A stretch of 56,719 nt of DNA from a virus, in IMG/VR virus record IMGVR_UViG_3300010885_071764, positions 1 to 56,719 of that record; one strand, given 5' to 3'. The notes under the pieces are model-generated. The model saw nothing but the letters and a program-made list of their open reading frames with translations, made no database searches and was not told the DNA's origin. Positions 1-19,737 of this stretch are shown here, piece by piece (the stretch's first letter is position 1; each line of letters starts with the position of its first letter). The position numbers and the translations under genes were made by a program.

Positions 1-867
1 CCAAACTACTTTTATCAATGGAATTTTGCTGCTCCTGACTTCAAGAAGCTATATGGTCCCTATTTCTCATTTAAACCCCCCAAATTTGAGTTTAATTCTG
101 AGGATGAGATGTTAGATTGGGTTTGGAACAAAGTTGAAGCAGCGACAAAGAATAGACTGTTAAGCTTGGACTATCCTATATCCATCCTGCTCTCAGGAGG
201 TCTGGATTCATCTATCATTGGTGGGCTTCTTCTTAAGCTAGGTGCGGATGTTAGTTGGTATACCATAAACAACGGACCGGACAATGATTATGTCAGAGAA
301 TGCGAGAATTATTGGGGTATTAAAGTAAACCAATTGGAATATACAATGAACGAAGATAGTATGAATCTGGATGAATTGTATTTTAAGTGGAATGAATCTC
401 CTATAGATTTAGGCAGTGTGGTACCACAGTACCTGCTATTTGATGCGATTAAAAAAGGAACAGACACTAGAATAGTCCTATCAGGGGACGGAGCAGATGA
501 AATGTTTGGAGGATATAGAAGAATAGATGAGTACGACTCACAAGGATCTGATGTTTTCCATGAATTAACATATTACCATTTACCAAGACTTGATAAAATG
601 AGCATGGCCCATACACTAGAGCTTAGAAATCCTTTTCTGAATTTAGAGCTTCTTCAAATGGCACTAAATCTTCCGATGGATTTAAGGAAACATAAGACTA
701 TTCTTAAGAAAGCATTCAAAGGATTGGTTCCCGATTCTGTTATAGAAAGAAAAAAGCATCCATTAAAGAATGAAAGAATAGTGAAAGATCCTATGGAATA
801 TAGAATAGAAGCTATTGAAAGCTTTAAAAAGGGATACAGCGATTTTTTAGAAAGAGGAGAATATTAA
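1..867 (+). CDS. asnB: Asparagine synthase (glutamine-hydrolysing)-like, C-terminal synthetase part, 5' end outside window
   Basis: The frame is already open at the first base, so the gene begins upstream and only its last 288 codons are visible. SGGLDSS at visible residues 65-71 is the PP-loop that binds ATP. SGDGADEMFGGY (about 161-172) and KMSMAHTLELRNPFL (about 199-213) are hallmark segments of the class B asparagine synthase domain, which adenylates a carboxylate and replaces AMP with ammonia. The glutaminase domain, if present, lies outside the window. In surface-glycan clusters such enzymes often amidate sugar acids rather than aspartate; the glycan operon a few kilobases away makes that possible here, but it is inference. 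An ATG at base 109 is internal and cuts off homologous sequence, so it is not the start. The stop overlaps the convergent minus-strand gene by four bases. Confidence 0.85.
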   Translation, partial: PNYFYQWNFAAPDFKKLYGPYFSFKPPKFEFNSEDEMLDWVWNKVEAATKNRLLSLDYPISILLSGGLDSSIIGGLLLKLGADVSWYTINNGPDNDYVRECENYWGIKVNQLEYTMNEDSMNLDELYFKWNESPIDLGSVVPQYLLFDAIKKGTDTRIVLSGDGADEMFGGYRRIDEYDSQGSDVFHELTYYHLPRLDKMSMAHTLELRNPFLNLELLQMALNLPMDLRKHKTILKKAFKGLVPDSVIERKKHPLKNERIVKDPMEYRIEAIESFKKGYSDFLERGEY

Positions 868-2351
868 TAAAGCTCAATTCCTGCTAGAGAATCACCTTTT
901 GCATTAAGTGGTGAATAATCTTCTGGTTCATCCGTCAAAAGAAAGGTCTTACTTGCATCGACAACTAAACCAGCTATTCCCATAAATCCCCTGTTAATTA
1001 GTATCGGAGTACTTTTGTTAGTTCTATCAACAATAGAAAATTTAACCTTCTTGTAAACCATTTCCCCGAATTCAATATCTAAAAGAATAACTGGCCTTTT
1101 ATCAGTTTGATCCCCAACTTCTGCATGGGAATATTCCATTATTCTGTTACTAAAGGATTTACCCCCAACTGTCCAATTTAAAAATCCATCAACCTCTTCT
1201 GAAAAATCTGCATGAAGAGAACACGCAATAGATCCGTTGCCAGTATCTAATTTACCTATAAATTTGCCAACCCCCTTGATATCAAAGCTCTCTCTAAATC
1301 CCACCATTTTTCGAGGATAATTCCAGTTCTTTTTATCAAGTATAAAATCTAAGATAATTCCTGTTACGTCAAGACCCGTTGCTTTTTCTATGCCGTCAGT
1401 TCCTGGTGATGCGTTTACTTCTAAAACATATGGTATACCAGTATTTTTTCCAATAATAATATCAACACCACACCACGAGCATTCAGTTGCTTTAGCAGCT
1501 CCTATTGCTATTTTTTCTATCTCTTTAGATATTTCTACTGCCTCTGCTACCCCACCTAAAGACACGTTTGTTCTAAAGTCATTCTCTATTCTGTGTCTTT
1601 TCATAGAGGCTATAATTGTATAATCATCCCCGTCGCCTGTAGAATTTCTAGATCCAACTACGTGTATTCTTAAATCAAAGTCAGCTTCTATTTTTTCTTG
1701 GACTATTAATTCAGTTTCTGGCGAAAGCTTCCATATTGTTTGTAAAGTTGAGAAAAGAGACGTTTTAGAATCTATCTGAAATACACCTATTCCTTTGGTG
1801 CCGCTTAATGTTTTTACTACAATAGGGTATTTTCCTCCAATTTTATTCATAGCATTTTCTATATCATCCTCTGATGATATTAAAGCAGTTTTTGGTGTCG
1901 GTATTCCTTTTTCTTGGAGTTTTTGAACAGTGTCTAACTTATCTTCACAAAGAAGTACAGATCTTGGGGAATTCACTGATACAAATCCGAGAGATTCAAG
2001 TTTTTCAAAAAATTTAACAGCTGCTGTTGAGTTTATTGATGATCTTCTAGCAAGTATTGCTGTATTTTTAATATCAATCTCATACTTGTTGTTGCTTCCT
2101 TTATTTCTAATAAAGAAGCTTCCTGTTTCACTTTTTTCGATTTCCCCCTGCGATGTGTTAATTATGATGCATTTAAATCCTAAAGAAGTGGATTTCTCCA
2201 TCATTTTTTTAACAGTTGGAGCAAGATAGTTTTTTCTTGATTCTAATTTGGTTGTAAGAATCACAAGGGAAATAGGCTTTTTTGAGCCTATCTTTAGATT
2301 CTCAGCTCCCTGAAAAACAAAATCATCTTCTTTGGTCAATAAATTATCCAT
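864..2351 (-). CDS. rimK: RimK-type ATP-grasp amino-acid ligase fused to a RimB-like retropepsin-fold protease domain
   Basis: A 495-residue two-domain protein. Residues about 10-340 match the RimK/ATP-grasp fold: a preATP-grasp N-terminus, a lysine/glycine-rich nucleotide loop (KTLSGTKGIGVFQ near 180), and the metal-binding end motif VLEVNASPGTDGIE near 310-323, where RimK has EVN.SPG..GIE. RimK adds glutamates to protein carboxyl ends using ATP. Residues about 350-480 match the RimB / 'ATP-dependent zinc protease' family: LDTGNGS with Asp369-Thr-Gly, a CSLHADF segment, RPVILLDI, and INRGFMG near 452. In bacteria RimB trims what RimK adds, usually as separate proteins. The gene is alone on its transcript: a promoter-like box lies 17-25 bases upstream and a terminator separates it from the acidic gene behind it. 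Substrate unknown; the neighbouring acidic protein is a candidate. Confidence 0.85.
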   Translation of the reverse strand: MDNLLTKEDDFVFQGAENLKIGSKKPISLVILTTKLESRKNYLAPTVKKMMEKSTSLGFKCIIINTSQGEIEKSETGSFFIRNKGSNNKYEIDIKNTAILARRSSINSTAAVKFFEKLESLGFVSVNSPRSVLLCEDKLDTVQKLQEKGIPTPKTALISSEDDIENAMNKIGGKYPIVVKTLSGTKGIGVFQIDSKTSLFSTLQTIWKLSPETELIVQEKIEADFDLRIHVVGSRNSTGDGDDYTIIASMKRHRIENDFRTNVSLGGVAEAVEISKEIEKIAIGAAKATECSWCGVDIIIGKNTGIPYVLEVNASPGTDGIEKATGLDVTGIILDFILDKKNWNYPRKMVGFRESFDIKGVGKFIGKLDTGNGSIACSLHADFSEEVDGFLNWTVGGKSFSNRIMEYSHAEVGDQTDKRPVILLDIEFGEMVYKKVKFSIVDRTNKSTPILINRGFMGIAGLVVDASKTFLLTDEPEDYSPLNAKGDSLAGIELY

Positions 2352-2439: not shown

Positions 2440-3009
2440 TTAATTGAAAAATCTATTAAAAGCAGGGTTTAAAATTTCTTCAGATTCTTCTTCTTCATGA
2501 TCCATTTCCTCGCCTTCTTCCATTTCTTCGTGGGTCATTTCTTCTCCTTCCTCCATTTCTTCATCTTCTTCTATTTCTTCCTCATTGACATCCGCTTCAT
2601 CTTCTAATTCTTCCTCCTCATTATACTCATCTAGGTCAATTTCTTCCTCTTCATCCTCATCTTCTTCGTTCATATTTTCTTCCATATCTTCCTCTTCTTC
2701 TCCTTCTTCCATATCTTCCTCTTCTTCCATACTTTCTTCTTCTTCCTCTTCTTCTTCCTCGTTATCTGTCATATCATCAGAAGTGGTATCATCGTCCATA
2801 TCAAATGAGGAATCTACTCCATCAGTTTCTTCATCTTCTTCTTCTGTTTCATCGTCAGTAGGAATTGAATCTGCACCACCATCGGTTTCAGTTTCTTCTT
2901 GATCTGCTGTATCTGCAGTGTCCATATCCATTTCTGTATTGTCTTGACCAAGTGTTCCTTCAGTGTATTGTTTAGAAAACTCCTCAAAACTTAATATCTT
3001 TTTTTCCAT
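2440..3009 (-). CDS. Extremely acidic (Asp/Glu-rich) protein with a capsid-targeting-like N-terminus
   Basis: 189 residues, of which I count about 101 as Asp or Glu (53%). It contains uninterrupted Glu runs (nine at about 74-82) and a repetitive MEEGEE / EEMEEGEEMDHEE pattern towards the C-terminus, and it ends in a short non-acidic tail (NPAFNRFFN). It has no fold I recognise. The N-terminus MEKKILSFEEFSKQYTEG resembles the MKTYQEFIAEA capsid-targeting leader of T4 internal head proteins, and YTE-G could be a prohead-protease site. T4 has a small acidic prohead core protein (gp67), so an internal scaffold/core role is a reasonable inference. Alternatives are a DNA mimic or a charge-neutralising internal protein. 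A promoter-like box sits 18 bases upstream and a strong terminator follows. The serine-rich frame on the other strand is only its shadow. Confidence 0.8.
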   Translation of the reverse strand: MEKKILSFEEFSKQYTEGTLGQDNTEMDMDTADTADQEETETDGGADSIPTDDETEEEDEETDGVDSSFDMDDDTTSDDMTDNEEEEEEEEESMEEEEDMEEGEEEEDMEENMNEEDEDEEEEIDLDEYNEEEELEDEADVNEEEIEEDEEMEEGEEMTHEEMEEGEEMDHEEEESEEILNPAFNRFFN

Positions 3010-5500: not shown

Positions 5501-5520
5501 GAATATATCTATAGTCTCTT

Positions 5521-6108
5521 ATGAGCCCCTTTCTAGTAATAGCTTATTATACCTTAGGAAACCCTTACCAGCAACTCTCGGAAAATCTTACAAAATCTTG
5601 TAAAGAATTTAATCTACCCCATTTTTTAAAACCAATAGAAGACTTAGGGTCTTGGGAAAAGAACACACACTATAAGGCAAACTTTATCAGTGACTGTTTA
5701 GAAAGATTCTCAGAAAATCTAGTTTATGTAGACGTTGATGCAGAGTTTAAAAGATATCCAGATCTATTTGAATCTTTAGATTGCGATATAGCATACAGGA
5801 CAGAGAATTTTAGATGGAGACAGAACGAAGCTTTAAGTGGAACAATCTTTATAAGAAATAATGATAATGCAAGATCCCTAGTTAATCTTTGGAAATCTAT
5901 CAATGAAAATAACGAAGCTTTTAGAAGCAAGCCGGATACATGGGAACAAGCTAATTTACAAAGGGCAACCAAACAAATCTCAGAAGTAACCTACAAAAAT
6001 TTGCCGCCGGAATACACCTACATATTTGACCACACTAAATCTATGTACCCAAACATATTACCTGTGATCGAGCACTTTCAGGCATCTAGAAAATCTGGAT
6101 CAAATTAA
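5521..6108 (+). CDS. Putative GT-A glycosyltransferase (nucleotide-diphospho-sugar transferase-like)
   Basis: 195 residues. VYVDVDAEFKRYPDLFE at about 68-84 has the DxD pattern that binds the metal and nucleotide sugar in GT-A enzymes, in the context typical of the nucleotide-diphospho-sugar transferase group (acidic motif, then 'P.LF..L..DIA'). The N-terminus (LVIAYYTLGNPYQ) starts directly with a beta strand, with no signal peptide. It is about two thirds of the usual domain length. It is clearly related to the next gene: the same order of motifs, with YVDVDAEF here and WMDCDTDF there. It is the first gene of the glycan operon and has its own promoter-like region upstream. Confidence 0.65.
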   Translation: MSPFLVIAYYTLGNPYQQLSENLTKSCKEFNLPHFLKPIEDLGSWEKNTHYKANFISDCLERFSENLVYVDVDAEFKRYPDLFESLDCDIAYRTENFRWRQNEALSGTIFIRNNDNARSLVNLWKSINENNEAFRSKPDTWEQANLQRATKQISEVTYKNLPPEYTYIFDHTKSMYPNILPVIEHFQASRKSGSN

Positions 6109-6141
6109 CAATAATGAGGATTTTGGATCATAAACATGAAT

Positions 6142-6150
6142 GATATATAA
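6142..6150 (+). promoter_or_regulatory. Candidate late promoter box inside the glycan region
   Basis: GATATATAA, ending 17 bases before the ATG at 6168, in the 59-base gap after the first glycosyltransferase gene. From here to 15211 the plus-strand genes have little or no spacing, so this may drive the whole glycan operon. Confidence 0.55.
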
Positions 6151-6167
6151 AAAGCGTAACCCATAGA

Positions 6168-7298
6168 ATGTTATCAGGAAAAATAAGTAAGATACGAAAA
6201 ATTTGGAATCCTATTAAGGATTTTATTAAACCCGAATTGGATATAAATGATACCCCGAAGAATCCGGGTGTTACCGGCAATACATCAAACGTTACTGTTA
6301 AACATAATATCATCAGCTATTATGCTGATTATGAAGAAAGAAAATATTATAAGGGATTTGCCAAAGCACTTATAGAGAGGTGTAAAGGATTTGGCTTGGA
6401 CTATGATATTGCAGAAATTGAATCCAGAGGAAACTATGGAGATAATTGTTTAATGAAGCCTGAGTTTATCCTTGAAAAATTAAAGCAGTATAAAAAACCT
6501 CTAATATGGATGGATTGCGACACCGACTTTAGAGAGCCATTTGATCATTTCAATGAGGTTACGGAGGATATAGGAATGGCAACTCATACCGGGAATATTG
6601 AGGGAATCAAAGCATCCCCCTTATATTTAAATTACACTAAAGGTGCTTTTAGAATAATAAGAGAGTGGGTGATTCATTGTAGAGAATGTTATGATAATGG
6701 TATAGTCGAATTAGATCATGACGCATTAAAGCACTACGTACTAGATACAATTAAAGGATCATATTCGATATACCTACTAAATAACAATTGGAACGACTTT
6801 GTACATGGGCGTTATATTTGGAATGGGAACTCAAAAGTCGAAGGCAAGGTACAGACCCATAGACAGGTAGGTGTTACAGATGATGTAAGAAGATCCTACT
6901 CACAAAATGCTAAGACATTTAAAATTATATTCAAATCAGAGACACCCAATGATTTTAAATCTGCATTGATTTTCTTAGACCAATTTTCAGATAGATCTAG
7001 AATTAATTTTATCTTTAAGAAAAAGCTTTTAGCCGAATCTATAGAAAATGATGATTTTGCTAGACTTAAAATAGAATCTGGCGGATTGGTATACTTTGAT
7101 CCCTCCGTTCTTGATTCTATTGAACCAGGAAAATCCGATATTATTATAGAAGCTACAAACGTCACAAACATAGAGCAAGATTGGGATCTTAAAATTATAT
7201 CGAGTATAGACACGGAACAAAATCCACTTGATGATTTATTTTTTGATTCAAAAGAAGGAGGAGTTAGAATAAAAACATATAAAAAACTATGGAGCTAA
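6168..7298 (+). CDS. Putative GT-A glycosyltransferase with a C-terminal extension
   Basis: 376 residues. After about 45 basic/helical N-terminal residues comes a GT-A-like domain (ISYYADYEERKYYKGFAKAL onward) with LIWMDCDTDFREPFDHF near 107-123, the presumed DxD metal site. It is a longer paralogue of the gene before it. The last 130 residues (about 245-376) have no match I can name and look mixed alpha/beta; they could hold a second small domain. The acceptor and sugar are unknown. It overlaps the fucosyltransferase gene by ten bases, implying coupled translation. Confidence 0.65.
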   Translation: MLSGKISKIRKIWNPIKDFIKPELDINDTPKNPGVTGNTSNVTVKHNIISYYADYEERKYYKGFAKALIERCKGFGLDYDIAEIESRGNYGDNCLMKPEFILEKLKQYKKPLIWMDCDTDFREPFDHFNEVTEDIGMATHTGNIEGIKASPLYLNYTKGAFRIIREWVIHCRECYDNGIVELDHDALKHYVLDTIKGSYSIYLLNNNWNDFVHGRYIWNGNSKVEGKVQTHRQVGVTDDVRRSYSQNAKTFKIIFKSETPNDFKSALIFLDQFSDRSRINFIFKKKLLAESIENDDFARLKIESGGLVYFDPSVLDSIEPGKSDIIIEATNVTNIEQDWDLKIISSIDTEQNPLDDLFFDSKEGGVRIKTYKKLWS

Positions 7299-8152
7299 TA
7301 AAAGGCATAGGAATGCCATTTCCTGAGAATTTTTCTTCGTGCTCTAATCTACCGCCAAAAGAATTTTGCTGGACTAGTAAGGAGGGTATAGCAGATATCT
7401 ATATTGATGATAAAATAATGGACGGGTTACAAACACCTAAGAATGATTCTAAATTTGGATGGCTTTGTGAATCTAGAGAGATCGCTATAGATATTTTTAA
7501 TACTATATTGCAAAATCCTAAAAAATTCAAAGAAAAATATGCAGGTATTTTTACGTGTGATGAGACTTTATTAGGGTGTGATTCTTTATTCATATATGCA
7601 CCACCAGGATCTAATCTTCCGTGGACTAGACCCGAAGAGATTGCAGTTTATCAAAAATCTAAATTATGCTCTATGATATGTTCACCTAAGACAAGAACAG
7701 ATGGACATAAATTGAGATTGGATGTTGCAAAATCATTGATGAATAGTATTGACTTATTTGGAGGCGCGCATAACTCTCCAAGGATCGGTGAGGGATTTGG
7801 ACCAAAACATGATTGGTGGAGATCAAAATTACCAGCTTTAAAAGACTACATGTTTTCGGTTGTATTCGAAAATGCGGTGTATGACAAATACTACACTGAA
7901 AAAATAACCGATTGCTTTGCAACAGGAACAATCCCAGTTTACTGGGGGACTAGGAAAGTGACGGAAGACTTTAATCAGGATGGAATAATATTCTTTGATG
8001 ATATAAAGGGTGACATTGGAATACTATCTGAGAATCTATACAAATCTAAAATGGATGCAATACTAGATAATTTAGAAAAAGTTAAATCATTAAAGTCTGG
8101 AGATGATCTTGTGTATTCTGCTATAAAAAAAATTCAAAATGCAGGAAAATAA
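7289..8152 (+). CDS. GT10-family fucosyltransferase-like glycosyltransferase
   Basis: 287 residues. Residues about 188-221 carry the signature of family GT10 alpha-1,3/4-fucosyltransferases: FSVVFENAVYDKYYTEKI followed by DCFATGTIPVYWGT, the part that binds GDP-fucose. Family members use GDP-L-fucose, and the genes that make it (fcl, gmd) are 5 kb downstream on the same strand, so donor supply and transfer are encoded together. The N-terminal half is the variable acceptor-binding part. There is no membrane anchor, so it is cytosolic. It overlaps both flanking genes (10 and 14 bases). The acceptor is unknown: phage fibre glycan, host glycan and other targets are all open. Confidence 0.8.
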   Translation: MELIKGIGMPFPENFSSCSNLPPKEFCWTSKEGIADIYIDDKIMDGLQTPKNDSKFGWLCESREIAIDIFNTILQNPKKFKEKYAGIFTCDETLLGCDSLFIYAPPGSNLPWTRPEEIAVYQKSKLCSMICSPKTRTDGHKLRLDVAKSLMNSIDLFGGAHNSPRIGEGFGPKHDWWRSKLPALKDYMFSVVFENAVYDKYYTEKITDCFATGTIPVYWGTRKVTEDFNQDGIIFFDDIKGDIGILSENLYKSKMDAILDNLEKVKSLKSGDDLVYSAIKKIQNAGK

Positions 8153-8777
8153 AAACATTTTAGTAACTCAATTTTACATTCCTGATGACGTTGAAAGATA
8201 TCAAGAATTAAAGTATTGTGTGAAAGAGAATATTTCCAATGAATTAATAGATCAAATTGTTCTGGTTATTGAAAGGGGAACCCTTAATAGACTAATTCCG
8301 TTCCACAAGAAAATAAAAATTAGTTGGATAGAAAATAGACCAACCTACCAAGATCTTTTTAATGTAGCAAAGGAAACGCTTGGAGACGAAAAAGGATTAA
8401 TGTTAATATCTAATAGTGATATTTTTTATGATGAAGATTGTATTTCTAAAATGTATGAAAAAATTTCCAATCAAGAACCCCTAGCCCTTTCAAGATGGGA
8501 ATTCAAAATAGGAAGCAACCCGGTTCATCATGATACCTGGGACAGTCAAGATACGTGGGTGTTTAAGGATTATATTCTTCCTGGAAAATATGCTATAAAT
8601 TTAGGAATACCTGGATGTGATAACAAAATAGCTTACGAGCTTCAAAAGGCTGGATATATGGTTAAGAATCCATCTAAGTCTATAAAATCCTATCATTATC
8701 ACACATCAGAGCATAGAACATATAATGAAGAAGATAGAATTTCTGGACCTTATCTTTTTATAAACACCGAAGAATGA
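8139..8777 (+). CDS. Putative glycosyltransferase (GT-A type, short)
   Basis: 212 residues. It begins with a beta-strand start (NILVTQFYIPDD). LMLISNSDIFYDEDCI near 88-103 is in the place of the GT-A acidic motif, with NSD instead of DxD. The C-terminal half has LGIPGCDNKIAYELQKAGY and a YHYHTSEHRTY stretch, a His-rich pattern I associate with glycosyltransferase-like proteins in capsule clusters. It overlaps the GT10 gene by 14 bases and the next gene by an ATGA. The call rests on the motif layout plus operon context; the sugar specificity cannot be read. Confidence 0.55.
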   Translation: MQENKNILVTQFYIPDDVERYQELKYCVKENISNELIDQIVLVIERGTLNRLIPFHKKIKISWIENRPTYQDLFNVAKETLGDEKGLMLISNSDIFYDEDCISKMYEKISNQEPLALSRWEFKIGSNPVHHDTWDSQDTWVFKDYILPGKYAINLGIPGCDNKIAYELQKAGYMVKNPSKSIKSYHYHTSEHRTYNEEDRISGPYLFINTEE

Positions 8778-9424
8778 GTAAAATAGATTTAAAAAAAATA
8801 ACTGCGGTTTGTATAGACGGAAGACCCTATGATAAAGAAAGGTATGAGAGGTATAGTGTTATTCTTAATTTCTTTCTAACAAACGTGGAATTTACATCTA
8901 TACAAATGATATCCACACACGATCCAGAAATAGAAGGTGTTTCTCATACAAGAATAAAAGAATTTGGAATATCTGATTATTCAAGATTCTGCTTGCATCA
9001 TTTATCAGATTGGGTTAATTCTGAGTTTTGCCTTATTTTTCAGGATGATGGATTTATACTCAATCCTAGTTTATGGAACGATTCTTTTTATGAGTATGAT
9101 TATATAGGATCTCCTTGGCCTCTTTATATAGGTTGGCCGGTAGAGGGACAACAAGTAGGAAATGGTGGATTTTCACTCAGAAGTAAAAGGCTTTTAGAAT
9201 TTACTAAAACATTTACCGGGCACACCACTGAGAATGAAGACACCTATATAATTTCTGCTAAAAGAAAAGATATAGAAGATGAAGGATTAAAAATTGCTCC
9301 TTTAGAAATTGCTCGACTTTTTTCGATTGAGAATAGTTTAGACCCCGAGCATCGTTTAGATACATGCTTTGGATTTCACGCCAAGCATTTATTAGATGAT
9401 GCAATAAAAATGATACAACAATGA
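8774..9424 (+). CDS. DUF5672-like putative glycosyltransferase
   Basis: 216 residues. FCLIFQDDGFILNPSLWND (near 92-110), YDYIGSPWPLYIGWP and VGNGGFSLRSKRLL are the pattern of the DUF5672 family as I remember it (an acidic 'Q.DG' motif, 'YDYIG.PW', 'GNGGFSLR'), found in surface-polysaccharide clusters and presumed to be GT-A glycosyltransferases. It is joined to its neighbours by ATGA overlaps at both ends, a sign of one polycistronic transcript. The biochemical role has not been shown for the family as far as I know. Confidence 0.65.
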   Translation: MSKIDLKKITAVCIDGRPYDKERYERYSVILNFFLTNVEFTSIQMISTHDPEIEGVSHTRIKEFGISDYSRFCLHHLSDWVNSEFCLIFQDDGFILNPSLWNDSFYEYDYIGSPWPLYIGWPVEGQQVGNGGFSLRSKRLLEFTKTFTGHTTENEDTYIISAKRKDIEDEGLKIAPLEIARLFSIENSLDPEHRLDTCFGFHAKHLLDDAIKMIQQ

Positions 9425-10149
9425 AAGTAATGGCATATTATCCAGTTCACTATGGAGCTGAGTATTTTAATGCATCTATTAAATCAATAGATGAACAGGT
9501 TGAGAAAATCCTAATTCTTTATACGCCTAAACCTAGTTATGGCCACGGAACAGAAAAGCAATGCCCGGAAACAGAAGATGAATTAAAAGAGATAGCATTT
9601 GGATCTTCCAACAAAATAGAATGGGTGACAGTAGATGCTGGTAATGAAGGAAATCACAGATCTTTGGCATTCACCAATGCATCTGAGTATGATATCATGC
9701 TAACTCTAGACACAGATGAAGTTTGGGAGTCTACTTCTTTAGAAAGATGTATTCAAGAAGCATATGACGGAGAAGCATGGAGAAGAAATATTTCCGGATT
9801 TATTCATTTTTGGAAATCTTTCAATTGGGCATGTCAAGATGGTTTTGAGCCTGCTAGAATTTTTAATCTAAAAAGAAAAAATAATTTAGAGGTTCCAATT
9901 GACGGTACAATCTATCATTTTGGGTATGCTCAATCTAAAAAAATAATGGATTACAAGTTTGATATTCATGGACACAAGAATGAACTTAAAGAAGGATGGT
10001 TAGAAAATACATACTATGGATGGGAACCTGGAAAACTAGATCTTCATCCAACATGTGGTGTTTGGCCAGAAGCTAAACACTTTGATAAAAACACACTCCC
10101 TGATATTCTAAAATCACATCCAAATTTTAATAAAGAAATAATTTCATGA
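9421..10149 (+). CDS. Putative GT2-like glycosyltransferase
   Basis: 242 residues. The order is strand-start MKVMAYYPVHYGAEYFNASIKS, a long loop, then IMLTLDTDEVWESTSLERC near 97-115 with the DTDE acidic motif of GT-A enzymes (as in glycan-building GT2-like proteins with 'LDADE'). The C-terminal 70 residues are rich in His, Trp and Tyr (IYHFGYAQSKK, HGHKN, WEPGKLDLHPTCGVWP), plausibly the acceptor site. No membrane segment. ATGA overlaps with both neighbours. Donor and acceptor unknown. Confidence 0.6.
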   Translation: MKVMAYYPVHYGAEYFNASIKSIDEQVEKILILYTPKPSYGHGTEKQCPETEDELKEIAFGSSNKIEWVTVDAGNEGNHRSLAFTNASEYDIMLTLDTDEVWESTSLERCIQEAYDGEAWRRNISGFIHFWKSFNWACQDGFEPARIFNLKRKNNLEVPIDGTIYHFGYAQSKKIMDYKFDIHGHKNELKEGWLENTYYGWEPGKLDLHPTCGVWPEAKHFDKNTLPDILKSHPNFNKEIIS

Positions 10150-11060
10150 GAAAAAAGCTTTTATACATTCCTTTAGATTATTGTAGACATGCTGAGAGTG
10201 ATTCAATATTTAACTCCATGTTATCTGGATTTAATACCCAATTTGAAGCTCGTGTTTTTAAAAATATGGAGGAATCTACTTTATTTAACCCGGATCTTGT
10301 TTATATGCACGGTAATGCCATTTCGATTGAAGAATGTCATTTGCTTAAAAAATCAACTAATGCTTTTTTTACCATATGGGTAGGTGACGTTAGATATGCA
10401 CCTTTACCCGAGGCAATGAGCATGATTGATGTTGCAAATCTCTATTTATTTCCATTTAAAGGAGAACAATTAAAATCTTTTTCTCGAATTCTTAATACAC
10501 CTTGTGAATATCTTTTTGAGGTATTTGATGATAGGCAGATTAGAGATGTAAAGGAGATATCTTCTGGAAGAATAGTATTTGTTGGCAATGTTTATGAGCA
10601 TTTTCCAGGGGGTGAAGAAAGAATATCTCTCGTAAAATTTATTGGGAAATATGCTCCTGAATTAGAGTATTATGGATCATTCCCATATGAGAGTAATTCA
10701 GCAAAAGGGGGAATAGATTTCTCAAATGTTCCAGACTTATATAATTCATCATATTTAACTATTGCACATAATAATAGAAATGATATAGATGGGTATTTTA
10801 CTCACCGTAACTTAATAGCGCTAGCATCAGGCTCATGTGTATTGATGAAATATTTTCCTGGTATAGAGGAATTCTTTATTAATTGGGAGCATTGCGTTTA
10901 TTATAAAACAAATTATGAATTATTGGATGTAATTGAATTTTTAAAAAGAAACCCAGACATAAGAAATAAAATTGCTAAAAGCGGAAATACATATGTTAGG
11001 GAAAATTATCTAAATGCTAATTTTGCCTATAAGTATAATGAAATTTTAAATAAAATATAA
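10146..11060 (+). CDS. Putative GT-B glycosyltransferase (CgeB / GT4-like)
   Basis: 304 residues. The C-terminal half carries a retaining GT-B pattern: VPDLYNSSYLTIAHNNR, then GYFTHRNLIALASGSCVLMK and a following acidic loop PGIEEFF, then HCVYYKTNYELLDVIEFLKRNP and an NTYVRENYL tail, as in CgeB-like and GT4-like enzymes. The N-terminal half is a second Rossmann-like part. The operon runs through with an ATGA overlap upstream and a ten-base gap downstream. It is the only GT-B-type enzyme I see in this cluster. Confidence 0.65.
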   Translation: MRKKLLYIPLDYCRHAESDSIFNSMLSGFNTQFEARVFKNMEESTLFNPDLVYMHGNAISIEECHLLKKSTNAFFTIWVGDVRYAPLPEAMSMIDVANLYLFPFKGEQLKSFSRILNTPCEYLFEVFDDRQIRDVKEISSGRIVFVGNVYEHFPGGEERISLVKFIGKYAPELEYYGSFPYESNSAKGGIDFSNVPDLYNSSYLTIAHNNRNDIDGYFTHRNLIALASGSCVLMKYFPGIEEFFINWEHCVYYKTNYELLDVIEFLKRNPDIRNKIAKSGNTYVRENYLNANFAYKYNEILNKI

Positions 11061-11070
11061 AAGCTAAATC

Positions 11071-11598
11071 ATGAAAGATAAAATAAAAAAATATTCTCTC
11101 CATTGGGCTTTAGGTGGAAATGATGCGAACGGAGGACTGGAACAAAATGCTTATGAACTTGAAAAGCTTTGTGAATTTATAAAGGAAAAAAATATTAAAA
11201 CCTACACAGAGATAGGGTGTGCTGCTGGACAGCTCCTAAGATTTATGAGGGATGAATTTGAACTTGATACAACGGGAATTACTTTAGAACCAAGGGATAC
11301 TCATAAAGATCTACCCATAATACACGGAAGTTCTAGAGATCCTGAAATAATAAAAACTGCAAAGCCGTGTGATCTTTATTTCATAGACGGAGATCATTCT
11401 TATTTAGGAGTTAAATCTGATTATTTGAATTATAAAGGTCTTTGTAAATACATGGCATTTCACGACATATTAGGACAAAGAGACTGTGAAGGGGTTTCCC
11501 AATTTTGGAATGAAATAAGAAATGAATATGAATTTATAGAATTTATAGATCCTAATAGGGATATAGCTAGTGGAATCGGAATTATTAAAATAATATAA
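11071..11598 (+). CDS. SAM-dependent class I methyltransferase
   Basis: 175 residues. TYTEIGCAAGQLLRFM near 41-56 is the glycine-containing SAM-binding motif I. CDLYFIDGDHSYLGVKSDY near 106-124 is the motif seen in the Methyltransf_24 / cephalosporin-hydroxylase-like group, where the Asp and His bind the substrate or a metal. FHDILGQRDCEGV follows. Such enzymes in glycan clusters usually O-methylate sugars. It sits between a GT-B gene and an epimerase gene in the operon, so sugar methylation is the likely role. DNA or protein methylation cannot be excluded from sequence alone. Confidence 0.7.
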   Translation: MKDKIKKYSLHWALGGNDANGGLEQNAYELEKLCEFIKEKNIKTYTEIGCAAGQLLRFMRDEFELDTTGITLEPRDTHKDLPIIHGSSRDPEIIKTAKPCDLYFIDGDHSYLGVKSDYLNYKGLCKYMAFHDILGQRDCEGVSQFWNEIRNEYEFIEFIDPNRDIASGIGIIKII

Positions 11599-11600
11599 AA

Positions 11601-12635
11601 ATGGAAACTGTAATTATAACCGGATCCTGTGGATTAATTGGAAGTGAAGCTGTTAAATTCTTTCATACACAAGGATTTAAAATAATTGGAATTGATGATG
11701 ATTCTCGAGCTAAATTTTTTGGAAAAGAAGCAAGTACAAATGGGATGCTTTCTCAATTAAAAGAACTTAAAAATTACCAGCATCTTTCAATTAATATTTC
11801 ATCTTATCAAGATCTACAGACTAGTTTATCCAGCATTAAAGATCTAAAGATGATTATTCATACAGCTGCTCAACCTTCTCATGATTGGGCAGCAACAAAT
11901 CCGTTTGCAGATTTTAATGCAAATGCACTTGGTACCTTAAACATGCTAGAAATAACAAGAAATTATTTTCCAGAGGTAGTTTTTATCTTTACTTCTACTA
12001 ATAAAGTTTATGGAGATTTACCTAATACTATAACAGAATACACAGAATCTAATACTAGATTTAATCCGGTTAATTCTGATTTTATACTAAAAGGAATTAA
12101 CGAAAACCTATCAATAGATCAATGTAAGCATTCTTTATTTGGTGTATCAAAAGCTTACGGGGATTTAATAACACAGGAATATGGAAAATACTTTGGATTA
12201 AAAACTGGCACATTCAGAGGTGGATGTTTAACTGGACAAAATCATTCAGGTGTTAAGGCTCATGGATTTTTATCTTATCTAGTAAAATGTGCAATGACAG
12301 GAGAAAAATATTACATTAACGGATACAAAGGAAAACAAGTTAGAGATAACATACACTCTAGTGATGTTGTCTCCGCCTTTTATGAATTTTATAAAAATCC
12401 TAATCCCGGTGAAGTCTATAATATAGGAGGAGGAAATCTTTCAAACTGCTCAATTCTAGAAGCTATTGAATTAATTTATGAAATATCAGGTAAAAGAGTA
12501 GACTATGAATTACTTGAAACACCAAGAGAAGGCGACCATATTTGGTATATTAGTGATATGACAAAATTTAGAAATAATTATCCAAATTGGATTCAAAAAT
12601 ATGATCTAAGAAAAATAATAAAAGAAATGATATGA
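11601..12635 (+). CDS. NAD-dependent sugar epimerase, CDP-tyvelose 2-epimerase-like
   Basis: 344 residues, normal length for a short-chain sugar epimerase/dehydratase. TGSCGLIGSEAV at residues 7-18 is the NAD-binding GxxGxxG. HTAAQPSHDWAA, TSTNKVYGD, CKHSLFGVSK, GGCLTGQNHSG and GKQVRDNIHSSDV are characteristic of the CDP-paratose/tyvelose 2-epimerase-like group. The position that is Tyr in the usual YxxxK catalytic pair reads Phe180 (with Lys184) if aligned on HSLFGVSK. The product would be a modified nucleotide sugar for one of the neighbouring transferases; the exact sugar cannot be deduced. The stop overlaps the next start (ATGA). Confidence 0.75.
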   Translation: METVIITGSCGLIGSEAVKFFHTQGFKIIGIDDDSRAKFFGKEASTNGMLSQLKELKNYQHLSINISSYQDLQTSLSSIKDLKMIIHTAAQPSHDWAATNPFADFNANALGTLNMLEITRNYFPEVVFIFTSTNKVYGDLPNTITEYTESNTRFNPVNSDFILKGINENLSIDQCKHSLFGVSKAYGDLITQEYGKYFGLKTGTFRGGCLTGQNHSGVKAHGFLSYLVKCAMTGEKYYINGYKGKQVRDNIHSSDVVSAFYEFYKNPNPGEVYNIGGGNLSNCSILEAIELIYEISGKRVDYELLETPREGDHIWYISDMTKFRNNYPNWIQKYDLRKIIKEMI

Positions 12636-13261
12636 TTAGTATAGTTTTTCCCCACGCTATGAACAAAGAGAATGATGCGGTTCTCCAATTGAAATTAAAA
12701 ATGTTAGAAGAGAATTCCACTTACCCCTATGAGGTTATGGTTTTATCCAACACAGGAAGACCTGATTTAGTTTATGAATCATGGGATTGGATGATGAGAA
12801 GAGCTAAATATGACCTGGTTCTATGGGATAATTCAGATATAACATATGCTCCAAAATTCATGGATAATATTATCAAACACAAAGATGATGCAGATTGGTT
12901 AGGACTCGAATTAATTGAATGTGGAGCCATAGGAGTGGCTGCAACCAACATCCATCAAGATTTTGGAAGAACCGCAAATTCTTTCAATAGATCAGAATTT
13001 GAAAAATGGGTGGAAGAATATTCTAAAGATCGCCCATCAATAAGAGAAGGATTTTGCTGGTACTCTCCTTCAGTTTGGAAGAAAGAATGGTACATTAAAA
13101 TGGGTGGTTTTGACTTCTCGAAGCCATTTCCTCACCCGAATGATTCTGAGTTTAGAGAGAAGTGTATAGCAGCAGGATCAACATTTGCTGTTGTTAATTC
13201 TTTTGCATATCATTTTCAAAGAGCAGGAGAAAATAGGGGAGAAAAACCAGAAAGAGAATAA
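12632..13261 (+). CDS. Putative GT2-like glycosyltransferase
   Basis: 209 residues. Layout: ISIVFPHAMNKENDAVL (first strand), YEVMVLSNTG, a two-Trp helix (ESWDWMMRRAKYD), then LVLWDNSDITYAPKFMDNI near 67-85 as the acidic donor-binding motif. GFCWYSPSVWKKEWYIKMGGFDFSKPFPHPNDSEF resembles the family's late catalytic segment, where 'GGFD..f.....D.ef..R' is common. The final ten residues are highly charged. ATGA overlap with the epimerase gene; ten-base gap before fcl. Confidence 0.65.
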   Translation: MISIVFPHAMNKENDAVLQLKLKMLEENSTYPYEVMVLSNTGRPDLVYESWDWMMRRAKYDLVLWDNSDITYAPKFMDNIIKHKDDADWLGLELIECGAIGVAATNIHQDFGRTANSFNRSEFEKWVEEYSKDRPSIREGFCWYSPSVWKKEWYIKMGGFDFSKPFPHPNDSEFREKCIAAGSTFAVVNSFAYHFQRAGENRGEKPERE

Positions 13262-13271
13262 TCAATGATAT

Positions 13272-14207
13272 ATGAAAAAAAATATTGCAATATTTGGATC
13301 AACAGGATTAGTTGGTTCTAACATCCTTAAAAAAATAGACACCGAAAAATATAGGGTTTACTCTCCTTCAAGAAAAGAATTAGATCTATTTAACCAAGAA
13401 AAGGTTCTTGATTGGTTTTTTGAAAACAGAGTAGAATATGTAATTCTTGCAGCTGCTAGAGTTGGCGGAATAGTTGCTAATTCAACATATCCTACAGAAT
13501 TTCTATACGAGAATCTAACAATGCAGAATAATATTATAATGTCTGCACTAAAAAGCGACGTTCAGAATCTTATATTCTTAGGATCATCTTGCATTTATCC
13601 AAGAGAATGTCCACAGCCTATTAAAGAAGAATATCTTTTAACCGGTCCTTTAGAGAAAACAAATAAATCCTACGCTCTTGCAAAAATTGCTGGTATTCAA
13701 TTATGTGATGCTATCAGAGAACAATATGGTAAGAATTATTATTCATTAATGCCTTGCAATCTTTACGGTCCCGGTGATAATTTTGATTTAGAAGCTTCAC
13801 ATGTTATTCCCGGAATGATTAGAAAAATTGAAAGTGCTAGAGATAACAATGAGCCAACCCTTAAGTTACTAGGAACAGGAAAACCCCTTAGAGAATTTCT
13901 TTATGTTGAAGATTTAGCAGATGGAATAATATTTATGCTGGAAAACTATAAAGGAAAAGACGGTTTAATTAATATAGGGAGTGGATCGGAAATCACAATA
14001 AGGGATTTAGCAAATATAGTTGCTCATGTCATAGACTATAAAGGTGAAATTCTTTTTGATACTGAAGGATTAGACGGAACGCCTAGAAAAGTAATGGATA
14101 ATTCTAAGATAGAATCTATAGGTTGGAAACCCCAAATGACACTAGAAACAGGAATAGCAGAAACTGTAAAATGGTATTGGGACAATAAAGATAAAGTTAG
14201 AAAATGA
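13272..14207 (+). CDS. fcl: GDP-L-fucose synthase (GDP-4-keto-6-deoxy-mannose epimerase/reductase)
   Basis: 311 residues, full family length. [10 protein letters not shown] at 9-18 binds [21 protein letters not shown] near 104-118 is a highly diagnostic segment of Fcl, Tyr134/Lys138 (YALAK) is the catalytic pair, and [11 protein letters not shown] is the conserved substrate loop. It converts GDP-4-keto-6-deoxy-D-mannose to GDP-L-fucose. It overlaps gmd by ATGA, so the two pathway enzymes are made together, and the GT10 fucosyltransferase of the same operon can use the product. The GATATATGA before its start overlaps the ATG itself and is not a usable promoter. Confidence 0.93.
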
Positions 14208-15211
14208 AAACAGCATTAATCACGGGGGTTAACGGGCAGGACGGATCTTATCTAGCAGAACTTCTTTTGGAAAAAGGATACAAAGTTCATGGAACAATCC
14301 GAAGATCATCGTCATTTAATTCGGGAAGAATAGAGCACTTTAGAGAACACCCTGATTTTAAAAGACACTATATGGATCTGACAGATTCGGGAAATGTGTC
14401 TCATATAATTTCAGAATTAAAACCAGATGAGATCTATAATCTAGGTGCTCAGAGCCATGTTAAAATTTCTTTTGATATTCCAAACTATACCGGGCAAGTT
14501 GATGCTATGGGAACATTAAATGTACTAGAAGCAATTAGAACGCATTCGCCTAAGTCTAAATTATATCAAGCATCTACCTCCGAACTTTATGGTAAGGTTC
14601 AAGAAACCCCTCAGAAAGAAACAACCCCATTCTATCCCAGATCTCCGTATGGTGTTGCTAAGCTGTATGGATATTGGATTGTTAAAAACTATAGAGAATC
14701 ATATAACATATTTGCATGTAACGGGATTCTTTTCAATCACACTTCTCCAAGAAGAGGCGAGAATTTTGTTGAAAAGAAAATTATAGATTCCCTCTGTCAG
14801 ATCAAAAAAGGAAAGATTGATATTTTAACCCTTGGTAATCTTTCTGCTAGAAGAGATATTGGACATGCGAAAGAATACGTTGAAGGCATGTGGAGAATGC
14901 TTCAACTGGAATCCCCTGAAGATTTTGTTCTGGCAACGGGTAAAACGTATTCTATTAAACAAATGGTTAATATGGTTTGTCAAAAATTAGAAATCGGCAT
15001 AGACTGGAAAGATGGAGGGGAAAGAGAAATTGCAATTGATAAATCTTCGGGAAAGATCATTATAGGGATAGATCCTAAATATTATAGACCTGCTGAGGTT
15101 GAACTCCTGCAAGGAGATGCTACTAAAGCTAAAGAAGTATTAGGATGGGAACCAAAACTATCTCTGTCAGAAATATTTGATGAGATGATAGCAGAATCAC
15201 TAAAGAATTAG
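14204..15211 (+). CDS. gmd: GDP-mannose 4,6-dehydratase
   Basis: 335 residues. [19 protein letters not shown] from residue 8 is the family's NADP-binding start, [17 protein letters not shown] the second diagnostic block, STSELYG near 124 and Tyr149/Lys153 (YGVAK) the catalytic part, and [13 protein letters not shown] the late conserved block. It makes GDP-4-keto-6-deoxy-D-mannose, the substrate of fcl. It is the last gene of the glycan operon. Its TAG stop overlaps the stop of the convergent minus-strand gene by four bases. With fcl it completes the GDP-mannose to GDP-L-fucose route. Confidence 0.95.
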
Positions 15212-17224: not shown

Positions 17225-17506
17225 ATGAATTTTCCTTCAAGAAGAGAAAGACGCTCCATGGTCAAGGCAATGGGTTTAATGAAGAAAAAAGAAACCCTAG
17301 CTCAAATGTCAGAAAGATTTAAAAGATCTAGCGAATTTGGAAAAATGATACACCTACAGCATTTACAGAATTTAGAAAACAATAGAATTAATTCAGAAAA
17401 AATCGAAGACTTAGAAGAAACCCAGCCATTGGCACCAACTAATTCTCCAGATTGGGGGTTAGAAGACTTCAAACAACAAATTATAAGTGGAGAAAATCCA
17501 GAATAA
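17225..17506 (+). CDS. Small basic helical protein
   Basis: 93 residues, not recognised. The N-terminal half is Arg/Lys-rich and helical (FPSRRERRSMVKAMGLMKKKETLAQMSERFKRSSEF); the C-terminal half is acidic with a Pro/Trp motif (PTNSPDWGLEDFKQQI). It lies seven bases after the Nudix-like gene and overlaps the next frame by 20 bases. Its position just ahead of the tail genes suggests an assembly protein or chaperone, but nothing in the sequence proves it. Confidence 0.55.
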   Translation: MNFPSRRERRSMVKAMGLMKKKETLAQMSERFKRSSEFGKMIHLQHLQNLENNRINSEKIEDLEETQPLAPTNSPDWGLEDFKQQIISGENPE

Positions 17507-17825
17507 AAAACCCCCAGTAAAAATACATCTTACTTCTCTTAGCTACCGTGAAATTAAAAAGTCACTGCCAGATAACGAGAAAGTGTCCTATATAGATGTA
17601 ACTAGGATTATCTCTGAAAGCTTCGGCGATAAAGATCTTAGTGATATTCAATATTGGATATTAAACCAAATGATAGTTAAGAAAATAGAGTCTTTTAAGA
17701 CCACTAATCCTTCAAAAATCTTTATAACTATCAAAGAACCCTCAAAAAATTCAATTAAATCCTTTAAGGATCTTCTCCTGGAGTTTAAACTAGGCCCTGC
17801 CCAAATAGAGATATACAGCATTTAA
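17487..17825 (+). CDS. Small hypothetical protein, GTG start
   Basis: 112 residues, compact alpha/beta (VKIHLTSLSYREIKKSL, SYIDVTRIISESFGD, KIFITIKEPSKNSIKSFKDLL), function unknown. The start is a GTG inside the end of the preceding gene, a 20-base overlap in the +1 frame, which points to translational coupling. A run of A then C (AAAAAACCCCC) follows the upstream stop. It ends 52 bases before the first large tail gene. Confidence 0.55.
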   Translation: MEKIQNKKPPVKIHLTSLSYREIKKSLPDNEKVSYIDVTRIISESFGDKDLSDIQYWILNQMIVKKIESFKTTNPSKIFITIKEPSKNSIKSFKDLLLEFKLGPAQIEIYSI

Positions 17826-17846
17826 TTTAAGAGTATCCCATTTTAG

Positions 17847-17856
17847 GAATATATAA
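17847..17856 (+). promoter_or_regulatory. Candidate late promoter box heading the tail/baseplate operon
   Basis: GAATATATAA, ending 21 bases before the GTG at 17878. It is in the only sizeable gap (52 bases) ahead of the tail genes, which then run with little spacing to 32777. Confidence 0.5.
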
Positions 17857-17877
17857 CTTAAATAACAATTATAAGCT

Positions 17878-19737
17878 GTGGACCAAGTATTAAGTGCTAG
17901 AGGCGAGGCACTCGTAAAAGCTACAACGATAACTAAGATTGTTTCAAGTACAGGTAGTTTTAAAGAGGACCTTGTGGATAGATCAGAAGCTACCAAGAAG
18001 AACGTTTATGGTTTTAACTCTGATAGGGAATATGGTGTTTTTGAAAATCAAAGCGATGCAGTTACTAGGTTACCGTCCTCTCTATTCTACGAGGCTCAAT
18101 CATCAGAGGATGGAAGATTAGGATTATTTAATTATCATGTTATAGGGGATTTAAAAGCTAGTGAAGGCGGGGGAGGAAAAATGAGCTATATTAAATCCGA
18201 AACGTATGCTAACAATCAGAGGGTAACCCCCGAAGTAAGTAGAAACCCAACTGCTCAAGCTATAATTGGAACAACTACCTCTAGTGGAGCGTATTTAAAG
18301 CCTAACAGTCCGTACGTCTCACAGCCATATAATGTGAAAGACTTCATTTTTTGTAAGTATTACGGTGTTATTCCTAATAATAGAATGATAACACTAAGAA
18401 GATTTCCAACACCAGTTATGGACAATCTAAGAGTGCCTACTACTGCACCTAGAATTGAAGCATCGCAAGAAGGTGATACTATAAAAGGAAATTTTGTCCC
18501 TAGAGATGGTCTTAATACTGCTCAGATGATCAAAGATGGTACAGCTCTTCCTATTGCTCAGGCTGTTACTTACTTTGGCGGAGATACAGGAAACACCCTA
18601 GATTCTATATTAAATGTTGAAACCGGATTAAAATGGGAGCCAAAGGGCCAAAAAACCAAATTAGGGGCAGAGGGTAATGACAAAGGGTTTTTATCCAGTA
18701 CTTATGGAAAATATATTGAATCAATAATAGGTGCTGAGGCTTTCAAAACAACTGAGAATATAAGTAATGGGATTGGTGTAGTAACGGATCCCGATAATGC
18801 AGAACTTAAAATAAGAAGAACACTTTTAGAAAAATTAACAACAGGGGATGGCCCTTTAAGCCAAAGAATATTTGTTGACGTTAACACTGTTAATAGCATG
18901 TATGTCAGAGGAGTCGGATTTACTGGGGGTGAACAAACCTTCAGTTTGAAATTTACGTATAGTTTAACCAGTGTTGGTGAGGTAAACAGTAGAATGATGT
19001 TCATTGATCTTTTTGCTAACTTATTAGCAATAGGTAGTGACTATGGTAAATTTTTAGCACCTCAGCTTTTAGTCAATTCAAATCGGCAAGGAATAGGATT
19101 TCCGGGAGGATCAAAAGGGTATGTTAAACACTTAACAAATCCAGTGGAGTTTTTAAATGATATGATGAAAATGAAATTTGGGGAGGAAGTGAAGAAGAAA
19201 ATAAAAGGATTAGAAGGTCAACTTTCAAAAGCTCAAACAGAACTTACAGGTTTAAGTAATGGTAAGCCTTTATCTAAGAATGGCCAATTATATAAAACAC
19301 TTACGGTTATGTTAACCAGTGATTTGCTTAATAATTTATATTATGAGCCTATTATGCTTTCCGGTTATCCAACGGGTGAATGGCACGTTGTTGTGGGGAA
19401 TCCGCTAAATCCTATAGCAATGATGGGAAATTTAATTTGTGAGAAGGTTAAGATAAATTTCAACAACACTTTAGGCCCTGATGATTTTCCAACGGAAATG
19501 ACAGCAGTATTTTCTATGAGAGCAGCAAGAACAAAACACAGGGGTGACTTTGAAAGCATGTTTAATAGAGGTAACGGGAGACTTTATCTTGGTAAGTTTC
19601 CAATCTCCGATGCATCTAAGAATGCTCAGGTTGGTGCATCAACAGGCATTGATATTCAGGGTAATTTACAAAGTAATAATGCTAGAAACGTTGCTTTTGG
19701 TTTTGCAGGGAATTATGGTCAGGAATTAGGATTATAA
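17878..19737 (+). CDS. Virion structural protein, probable tail/baseplate component
   Basis: 619 residues from a GTG start, which the promoter-like box 21 bases upstream supports; the next ATG in frame is far inside. Gly/Asn/Thr-rich, no signal peptide, mostly beta. The C-terminal 130 residues (GEWHVVVGNPLNPIAMMGNLIC, NNTLGPDDFPTEMTAVFSM, RGDFESMFNRGNGRLYLG) have the look of a beta-barrel domain like those of tail-tube and baseplate-hub proteins, where 'G.DD.PTE' strands are common. A short Lys/Leu coiled coil lies near 435-460. It heads the operon that continues with gp53-, gp27- and gp5-like genes. The exact T4 counterpart cannot be named from sequence alone. Confidence 0.6.
   Translation: MDQVLSARGEALVKATTITKIVSSTGSFKEDLVDRSEATKKNVYGFNSDREYGVFENQSDAVTRLPSSLFYEAQSSEDGRLGLFNYHVIGDLKASEGGGGKMSYIKSETYANNQRVTPEVSRNPTAQAIIGTTTSSGAYLKPNSPYVSQPYNVKDFIFCKYYGVIPNNRMITLRRFPTPVMDNLRVPTTAPRIEASQEGDTIKGNFVPRDGLNTAQMIKDGTALPIAQAVTYFGGDTGNTLDSILNVETGLKWEPKGQKTKLGAEGNDKGFLSSTYGKYIESIIGAEAFKTTENISNGIGVVTDPDNAELKIRRTLLEKLTTGDGPLSQRIFVDVNTVNSMYVRGVGFTGGEQTFSLKFTYSLTSVGEVNSRMMFIDLFANLLAIGSDYGKFLAPQLLVNSNRQGIGFPGGSKGYVKHLTNPVEFLNDMMKMKFGEEVKKKIKGLEGQLSKAQTELTGLSNGKPLSKNGQLYKTLTVMLTSDLLNNLYYEPIMLSGYPTGEWHVVVGNPLNPIAMMGNLICEKVKINFNNTLGPDDFPTEMTAVFSMRAARTKHRGDFESMFNRGNGRLYLGKFPISDASKNAQVGASTGIDIQGNLQSNNARNVAFGFAGNYGQELGL

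Follow-up and report, generated by a model that had tools for sequence, protein, structure and literature searches.

In the chlorovirus PBCV-1 the virus-encoded enzymes GMD (A118R) and GMER (A295L) make GDP-fucose from host GDP-mannose, within a system of mostly soluble transferases and methyltransferases that includes A064R and A061L (accessible part of PMC9614988). A comparable gene set is found in the operon described here, which occupies positions 5521–15211 of a 56,719-nt virus sequence (IMG/VR record IMGVR_UViG_3300010885_071764, positions 1–56,719; the whole of this stretch is called the window): it encodes the GDP-mannose 4,6-dehydratase Gmd, an Fcl-type GDP-L-fucose synthase, a GT10 fucosyltransferase-like protein and further, partly putative, glycosyltransferases. 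PBCV-1 infects eukaryotic algae, and its capsid protein is proven to carry an N-linked glycan, whereas for the phage of the window a virion acceptor is a prediction; the phage genes form an operon, while the PBCV-1 glycan genes are scattered in the genome. The best of the readings weighed below, held with somewhat less than even confidence, is that the operon is late-expressed, assembles a glycan by soluble enzymes and most likely decorates the virion.

Mycobacteriophages, whose hosts are of Gram-positive type, offer another comparison. Che8 and Rita are tailed phages too, with glycosyltransferases of their own and glycans on capsid proteins; the accessible part of that report mentions neither gmd nor fcl (PMC11256854). 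In the general O-glycosylation loci of Bacteroidetes, as described in the available text of PMC8698959, GDP-fucose and a fucosyltransferase (BF4306, Tanf_01305) likewise serve a protein O-glycan; these loci are host-encoded, and no gene for export across the membrane is seen in the phage operon.

Cyanophages, too, have dense clusters in which gmd and fcl lie next to each other among fucosyltransferases and several other transferases: we saw gmd, fcl and fucosyltransferases in S-SRM01 and S-SKS1, and they are described for S-SCSM1 (PMC9602691, in part). In a survey of 224 jumbo phages big clusters were mainly in cyanophages, with smaller sets elsewhere (accessible part of PMC7824862). The operon has the features of a cyanophage-type glycan island, with a gmd–fcl pair, a fucosyltransferase and a cluster of glycosyltransferases, and with a large phage as carrier whose baseplate genes are T4-like. 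The S-SRM01 island differs in its neighbors, which within 32 kb are porin, photosystem and other auxiliary genes and not tail genes, and in its annotated fucosyltransferases, which comprise NodZ and alpha-1,2 types as well as one that is GT10-like. Unlike this shared kit, o6168, the second gene of the operon, has just one weak match among 50,697 phage records, in a Cronobacter phage. (We name open reading frames, ORFs, of the window by their start or, on the minus strand, by their lower end.)

In the same records there were 264 matches to Gmd, 151 to Fcl and 21 to GT10; many of the Gmd and Fcl matches are generic epimerases. When 60 of the 151 Fcl matches were sampled, those above 40% identity over at least 90% were records of marine phages from single cells or metagenomes, of cyanophages and of faecal 'Bacteriophage sp.', and the Maribacter phages in the sample showed 24.8% identity. 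In IMG/VR we took the nearest 80 of 258 Gmd loci: within the fetched stretch an Fcl homolog (>120 bits) was present in 73, no more than 200 nt away in 65 of them, and GT10 in 39, as counted with a profile (A1) built partly from the same loci. The first-pass annotation of the window had called a complete fucose route with eight transferases unusual for a phage; given these counts and the three cyanophages this claim falls, as the fucose/glycan kit is already known from phages. New are the lineage, the fixed place beside virion genes and the architecture of kept ends and swapped middle. By titles and starts of abstracts, we recognized no description of a gmd–fcl–fucosyltransferase operon in a Bacteroidota jumbo phage in the open-access literature.

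Gene content and the predicted route to GDP-L-fucose

The operon consists of 12 uninterrupted ORFs on the plus strand, in the order o5521, o6168, GT10, o8139, DUF5672, o9421, o10146, methyltransferase, epimerase, o12632, Fcl and Gmd, and so the dense glycan operon noted at first pass is real. Most genes had been described as joined by ATGA or 10–14-base overlaps; overlaps occur at seven of the 11 junctions (five of 4 nt, one of 10 and one of 14), the other four being gaps of 59, 10, 2 and 10 nt. The window, a linear fragment, is 95.2–99.5% identical over four aligned stretches to part of G001 (IMG/VR record IMGVR_UViG_3300032331_003609, 244,850 bases), a relative used for comparison. Because of this identity, and because the operon ends recur in remoter phages, the arrangement is not due to chance.

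Gmd (14204–15211, plus strand, as are all genes of the operon) is securely assigned: it scores 497 bits against TIGR01472, above the equivalog cut-off of 415, and has the motifs GVNGQDG, TSELYGK and YGVAK, in which we take the nucleotide-binding glycines and the catalytic-type TxE and YxxxK residues to be kept. The neighboring Fcl (13272–14207) is homologous over its full length to the E. coli GDP-fucose synthetase (1bws, 2.3e-89 over residues 2–310) and has the motifs SSCIYP, YALAK and SHVIP, presumably supplying the catalytic S, C, YxxxK and H. It scores 413.8 bits against NF047922, short of the 500 required for naming, a cut-off passed by none of 10 related phages and by four of 14 control genomes; because of this score we call the protein Fcl-type and not an NF047922 member. 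Among distinct related ORFs above 300 bits, a search by regular expression found the motifs of Gmd in 66 out of 69 and those of Fcl in 29 out of 41. Together, Gmd and Fcl would convert GDP-mannose to GDP-L-fucose. Since NTP_transferase, looked for as a sign of GDP-mannose supply, matched one of 10 records, and weakly, we assume that the GDP-mannose would come from the host.

The GT10-like protein (7289–8152) matches PF00852 with 34.6 bits (2e-8; gathering cut-off 23.9). Its profile (E ≤0.01) retrieved five distinct PDB sequences, all named fucosyltransferases, with Helicobacter pylori FucT the best (6e-17). The AlphaFold2 model (pLDDT 92) is closest to human FUT9 (Z 15.5, 244 residues, root mean square deviation 3.9), followed by FUT13 (Z 14.2) and the H. 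pylori enzyme (Z 13.4), among the structural matches listed, a scope that applies to o6168 as well. Generic GT-B enzymes come within about 1–2 Z of FUT9, so it is the sequence and not the fold that sets the family. An alignment of 25 sequences has 25 invariant columns, among them E61, by analogy our presumed catalytic base, and E194, N195, T203, E204 and K205 (25/25) of an E-N...T-E-K block that we take to be the donor site. These results bear out the first-pass GT10 call and, with the assignments of Gmd and Fcl, support the proposed fucose route: GT10 or a neighboring transferase would transfer L-fucose from GDP-fucose.

The remaining genes suggest an oligosaccharide rather than the tweaking of one host sugar, as had been proposed. 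For o6168 (6168–7298) we found no Pfam, PHROG or NCBIfam match and, in a PDB profile search, only one row at chance level; around its weak relative in Cronobacter phage JK004 all genes are hypothetical. The o6168 model (AlphaFold2, pLDDT 83.6; first 40 residues unreliable) points to a GT-A glycosyltransferase: its top matches are three PDB entries titled as a glycosyltransferase of PBCV-1 major-capsid glycosylation (2p6w: Z 13.3, 169 residues, root mean square deviation 3.3), trailed by GT6-kind galactosyltransferases and blood-group enzymes from Z 12.2. We take 2p6w to be domain 1 of A064R. That domain has been assayed as a rhamnosyltransferase (accessible part of PMC9614988). The likeness of the o6168 model to the PBCV-1 enzyme is a resemblance, not family membership. 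A separate observation is that o6168 relatives of a distant lineage have a long extra N-terminal part (L039 7900–10005, 701 aa; L041 8304–10013, 569 aa).

The first gene, o5521 (5521–6108), is by phmmer a paralog of o6168; it has a DVDAE motif, no Pfam or PHROG match, and appears GT-A-like. The GT-B-type transferase o10146 (10146–11060) matches PF13524 (Glyco_trans_1_2, 1.9e-14). Thus, of eight glycosyltransferases counted at first pass, four are supported (GT10, o10146, o6168 and o5521). The DUF5672 protein (8774–9424), weaker as a candidate, matches PF18922 (6.1e-20), a family of unknown function. The other three are putative, having D-x-D-like motifs only: SNSD in o8139 (8139–8777; no Pfam match; relatives in L051, L041, L039 and L066), LDTDE in the GT2-like o9421 (9421–10149; PF00535 at E 0.15), and DNSD in o12632 (12632–13261; Glyco_transf_21 at E 0.15, or 0.048 for a relative, below the cut-off). 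The structure prediction and profile searches advised at first pass thus supported GT10 and o6168 by fold, while PDB profile searches with DUF5672, o9421 and o8139 gave no relatives. PHROGs were uninformative for eight of 10 operon proteins searched, as was NCBIfam for six transferases, and a Foldseek search of viral models returned mainly transferases of giant viruses and phages, which did not sharpen function.

The epimerase is confirmed as an NAD-dependent nucleotide-sugar epimerase/dehydratase (11601–12635; PF01370, 3.4e-32; phrog_540). The S-adenosylmethionine methyltransferase (11071–11598) did give a match, to PF13578 (Methyltransf_24; 5.5e-4), but at 21.2 bits, below the cut-off of 26.3; the methylated glycan suggested earlier depends on this single match and is worded here as a possibility.

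We compared the operon with 79 bacterial loci containing GT10 relatives (drawn from the best 80 of 153). At E 1e-4 no relative of o5521, o6168, o8139, o9421 or o12632 was found in the fetched stretches, DUF5672 occurred in one locus, and Gmd and Fcl in several. By this sequence comparison the five genes make up a phage-specific core with respect to the bacterial GT10 loci examined.

Kept ends and exchanged middle

The lineage is one of jumbo myophages, and the phage of the window is a large bacteriophage. The marker protein o17878 matched 31 phage records, every one at <60% identity: 15 named for Prevotella, six uncultured, five for Tenacibaculum, two each for Sphingomonas and Chryseobacterium and one for Flavobacterium. 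As 23 of the 31 are named for Bacteroidota hosts, the host is probably a member of this phylum. We had considered o17878 as tail sheath and ruled this out: the sheath is another gene (G001 120455–123787), and the o17878 homolog of phage PTm1 is ORF-011, not the annotated sheath ORF-016. In the first 75 kb of PTm1 no gene is annotated for glycan, and most are hypothetical. The bacterial GT10 loci gave no clear host, being of mixed phyla, with a 12-kb contig of a Chitinophagaceae metagenome-assembled genome the nearest.

Gmd has a fixed place beside virion genes. Among 28 IMG/VR loci with an o17878 relative, Gmd lies upstream of o16107 in 20; the other eight stop <2.9 kb upstream, short of the Gmd position. 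Beside Gmd we found Fcl in 11 of the 20 and a DegT aminotransferase in four (PF01041 for L013; the other three sister loci by similarity to the L013 protein); in two, L011 and L020, whose Gmd is 46–47% identical, these searches found neither, and in three (L023, L027, L030) the neighbor is cut by the contig end or unclear. Downstream of the operon in the window there are matches to baseplate hub, baseplate wedge and neck, and in L039/G005 a related cassette sits between the head protease/major head protein and the baseplate hub.

Across the lineage the ends of the operon are conserved and the middle is exchanged. In the near clade all six sufficiently long records (window, G001, L051, L053, L054 and L055, the last three with one gene order) have o5521-o6168-GT10 at the 5′ end and Fcl-Gmd at the 3′ end; in L036 and L037 the 5′ end alone is in view before the contig ends. 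Where the window has the epimerase, the methyltransferase, o8139, o10146 and o12632, L053 encodes a pyruvyltransferase, a hexapeptide transferase and an FkbM methyltransferase, together with an ORF of 192 aa. In L010 (o17878 87% identical) Fcl (90%) and Gmd (84%) are kept and the visible upstream genes differ. The more distant L059 (o17878 43%) has o5521, two o6168-like genes, GT10, Fcl and Gmd. In L025 a GT11 gene (PF01531, 1.8e-29), with a relative in L033, adjoins Fcl-Gmd, which hints that the product of Gmd and Fcl may be used for fucosylation there as well.

Several further arrangements were seen at these loci. In the sister clade (L013 4902–8081 and equivalents) Gmd is followed by a SIS isomerase, a DAHP/KDO-8-P-synthase-like gene, further ORFs and sometimes a cytidylyltransferase; in L051 DUF5672 is relocated downstream of Gmd, inside a 461-aa ORF (11006–12391); and in L037 (7385–8112) the o4646 homolog is split into two ORFs of 104 and 137 aa, by a frame break or a sequencing error.

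Promoter-like motif

The first-pass annotation placed the operon behind one promoter-like box; we found two. A weak GAATATAT box (5501–5508, plus strand) lies 20 nt upstream of o5521, and the stretch TATGAATAT is identical in six of six aligned sequences including the window. A stronger motif, GATATATA (6142–6149, plus strand), lies 26 nt upstream of o6168, and GATATATAA was found upstream of o6168 in all six near-clade records examined (window, L050, L036, L037, L053 and L051).

In G001, GATATATA occurs 9–60 nt upstream of 22 of 257 genes, whereas 500 shuffles of those stretches gave 1.4 genes on average and 7 at most; for GAATATAT the count is six of 257 (shuffled mean 1.3, maximum 6), and for seven other AT-rich words one to nine genes (means 1.0–3.4). 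Over the whole genome there are 46 copies of GATATATA (mean 23.8, maximum 35 in 20 shuffles). A whole-genome comparison overstates the motif, because other AT-rich words are also 8–10-fold enriched upstream of genes (AATATATA, 8 versus 0.8; TATAAATA, 9 versus 1.1; CATATATA, 2 versus 0.2); shuffling the upstream stretches themselves corrects for AT-richness.

A first PHROGs test covered nine of the 42 genes that have the motif or one of its variants upstream (159315 in part) and gave five virion genes (head closure, sheath, tube, portal and head protease) and four unnamed ones. For the 28 G001 genes with an exact copy at no more than 60 nt, 25 PHROG families are listed, among them those of the head (portal, head closure and head maturation protease) and the tail (sheath, tail, minor tail and tail fibre) and of virion structural proteins; a family named DNA polymerase (one member, 2.2e-7) and a RimK-type one are listed as well. 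The major head gene, without a copy of its own, starts 15 nt after the protease gene. Judged by the gene classes that carry it, GATATATA may be a late promoter; as a candidate promoter motif it could help to sort the genes of this phage by expression time. Eight motif-less DNA-metabolism genes (UvsX, DnaB, SbcD, SbcC, ligase, clamp loader, exonuclease and primase) were tried as a control and dropped.

Two other genes of the window have GATATATA upstream in G001. One (864–2351, minus strand) encodes a RimK-type ATP-grasp protein whose C-terminus weakly resembles a zinc protease (21.6 bits, below the cut-off of 27); the other, beside it (2440–3009, minus strand), encodes a protein that is rich in Glu, strongly acidic and preceded by a leader of capsid-targeting-like type. 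The pair could possibly glutamylate a virion protein. Close to the start of the window (109–867) an asparagine-synthetase-like protein is cut in its N-terminal part; in G001 (170744–172177) it has 477 aa with a glutaminase domain.

Acceptor of the glycan

If the fucose route works as predicted, o5521, o6168, the exchangeable middle transferases, the epimerase and the possible methyltransferase would build the rest of the oligosaccharide in the cytoplasm, with one or more virion proteins as the most likely acceptor. The conserved ends would then make the glycan core and the swapped middle would make an outer part that varies, in a way that resembles the glycosylation of the capsid by chloroviruses. 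What the computation shows is the set of genes and their conserved residues, ends that recur, a middle that is exchanged and a motif common with virion genes; the glycosylated virion named as an option at first pass draws on the motif, the virion-gene neighbors and the o6168 fold, although the acceptor itself is inferred.

As to export, PF02397 (initiating phosphoglycosyltransferase) was found in none of 10 phage records versus nine of 14 controls, other such families not being searched, and PF01943 (flippase) in none of 10 versus 13 of 14, other flippase families not being searched for; the two record sets have nine records in common and may be incomplete. No ORF of G001 has more than four hydrophobic windows. 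The simplest reading of these results is that the glycan is made in the cytoplasm, the site of virion assembly, though host carriers could serve.

Several points weigh against decoration of the virion. The strongest is that the acceptor is deduced. The exact motif stands upstream of the second gene only, the box before o5521 being a weak variant; several motif-bearing genes, RimK and o6168 included, have no virion annotation; and the motif-less DNA-metabolism genes are no independent control, because they were picked from ORFs without the motif. The PBCV-1 fold match of o6168 is nearly tied with GT6, and a common fold shows no function; Fcl misses its naming cut-off; and G001 may be an incomplete genome. 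The missing flippase is not decisive, since soluble transferases could extend host lipid-linked sugars. Late expression could also suit enzymes acting on the host surface.

The latter is the main competing explanation, and we consider it rather unlikely: the enzymes would remodel lipopolysaccharide, capsule or O-glycans of the host during infection, which would block superinfection or keep progeny from adsorbing to debris. This is how similar jumbo-phage and cyanophage clusters are interpreted in the accessible parts of PMC7824862 and PMC9602691; fucose would be host-like, because fucosylated protein O-glycans occur in Bacteroidetes (PMC8698959, in part), and exchange of transferases between relatives also fits surface diversification. 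Against it stand the lack of PF02397 and PF01943 in all 10 records each, the absence of any G001 ORF with more than four hydrophobic windows and the promoter-like motif that the operon has in common with virion genes.

Glycosylation of a hydroxymethylated base in the phage DNA we regard as improbable. By eye, the thymidylate-synthase-family proteins of G001 and G005 have Asp at the canonical Asn position, a mark of hydroxymethylases, and the best PDB match of the G001 protein is CMP 5-hydroxymethylase, albeit weak (4.3e-4); PHROGs name the same protein thymidylate synthase (5e-27). G004 also has Gmd-Fcl at this place, along with a GT11, and there a thymidylate synthase fragment has the canonical Asn. 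The GT10 model does match T4 AGT (Z 13.2), as many GT-B enzymes do, and extensive DNA modifications are reported for jumbo phage PAU (PMC7824862, in part), yet a fucose route with many transferases would far exceed the needs of known base sugars. The Asp-bearing proteins (L130 1090–1869, equal to G001 103166–103945, and L129 1468–2361) are in themselves possible pyrimidine hydroxymethylases.

That the product is no glycoconjugate but a small glycoside or secondary metabolite that diffuses or is secreted, as considered for a similar cyanophage cluster (accessible part of PMC7824862), is very improbable, for the tryptophan-halogenase-like, carbamoyltransferase, radical-SAM and two GT7-type proteins of G001 that would suit it are encoded >95 kb from the operon, which itself has no such enzymes. 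With an epimerase, these genes (G001 17228–18907, 57499–58722 and 66262–77145) form a second sugar- or natural-product-like region.

Significance

In its full form, the virion reading says that the phages of this lineage use a late operon to put together a fucosylated glycan for their capsid or tail. A core of o5521-o6168-GT10 and Gmd would be conserved, and a swappable outer cassette would alter the particle surface, which would make this a prokaryotic counterpart of chlorovirus capsid glycosylation; we put this forward as a tentative idea that may well prove wrong. Should the glycan sit on the virion, elaborate self-made virion glycans would reach a jumbo-phage lineage, beyond the mycobacteriophage cases, a point relevant to particle stability as well as to adsorption and immune recognition. 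The purpose of phage glycan islands would then also become directly testable. The lineage offers a natural experiment for this, with its kept ends, its exchanged middle and either Fcl or an aminotransferase as the neighbor of Gmd.

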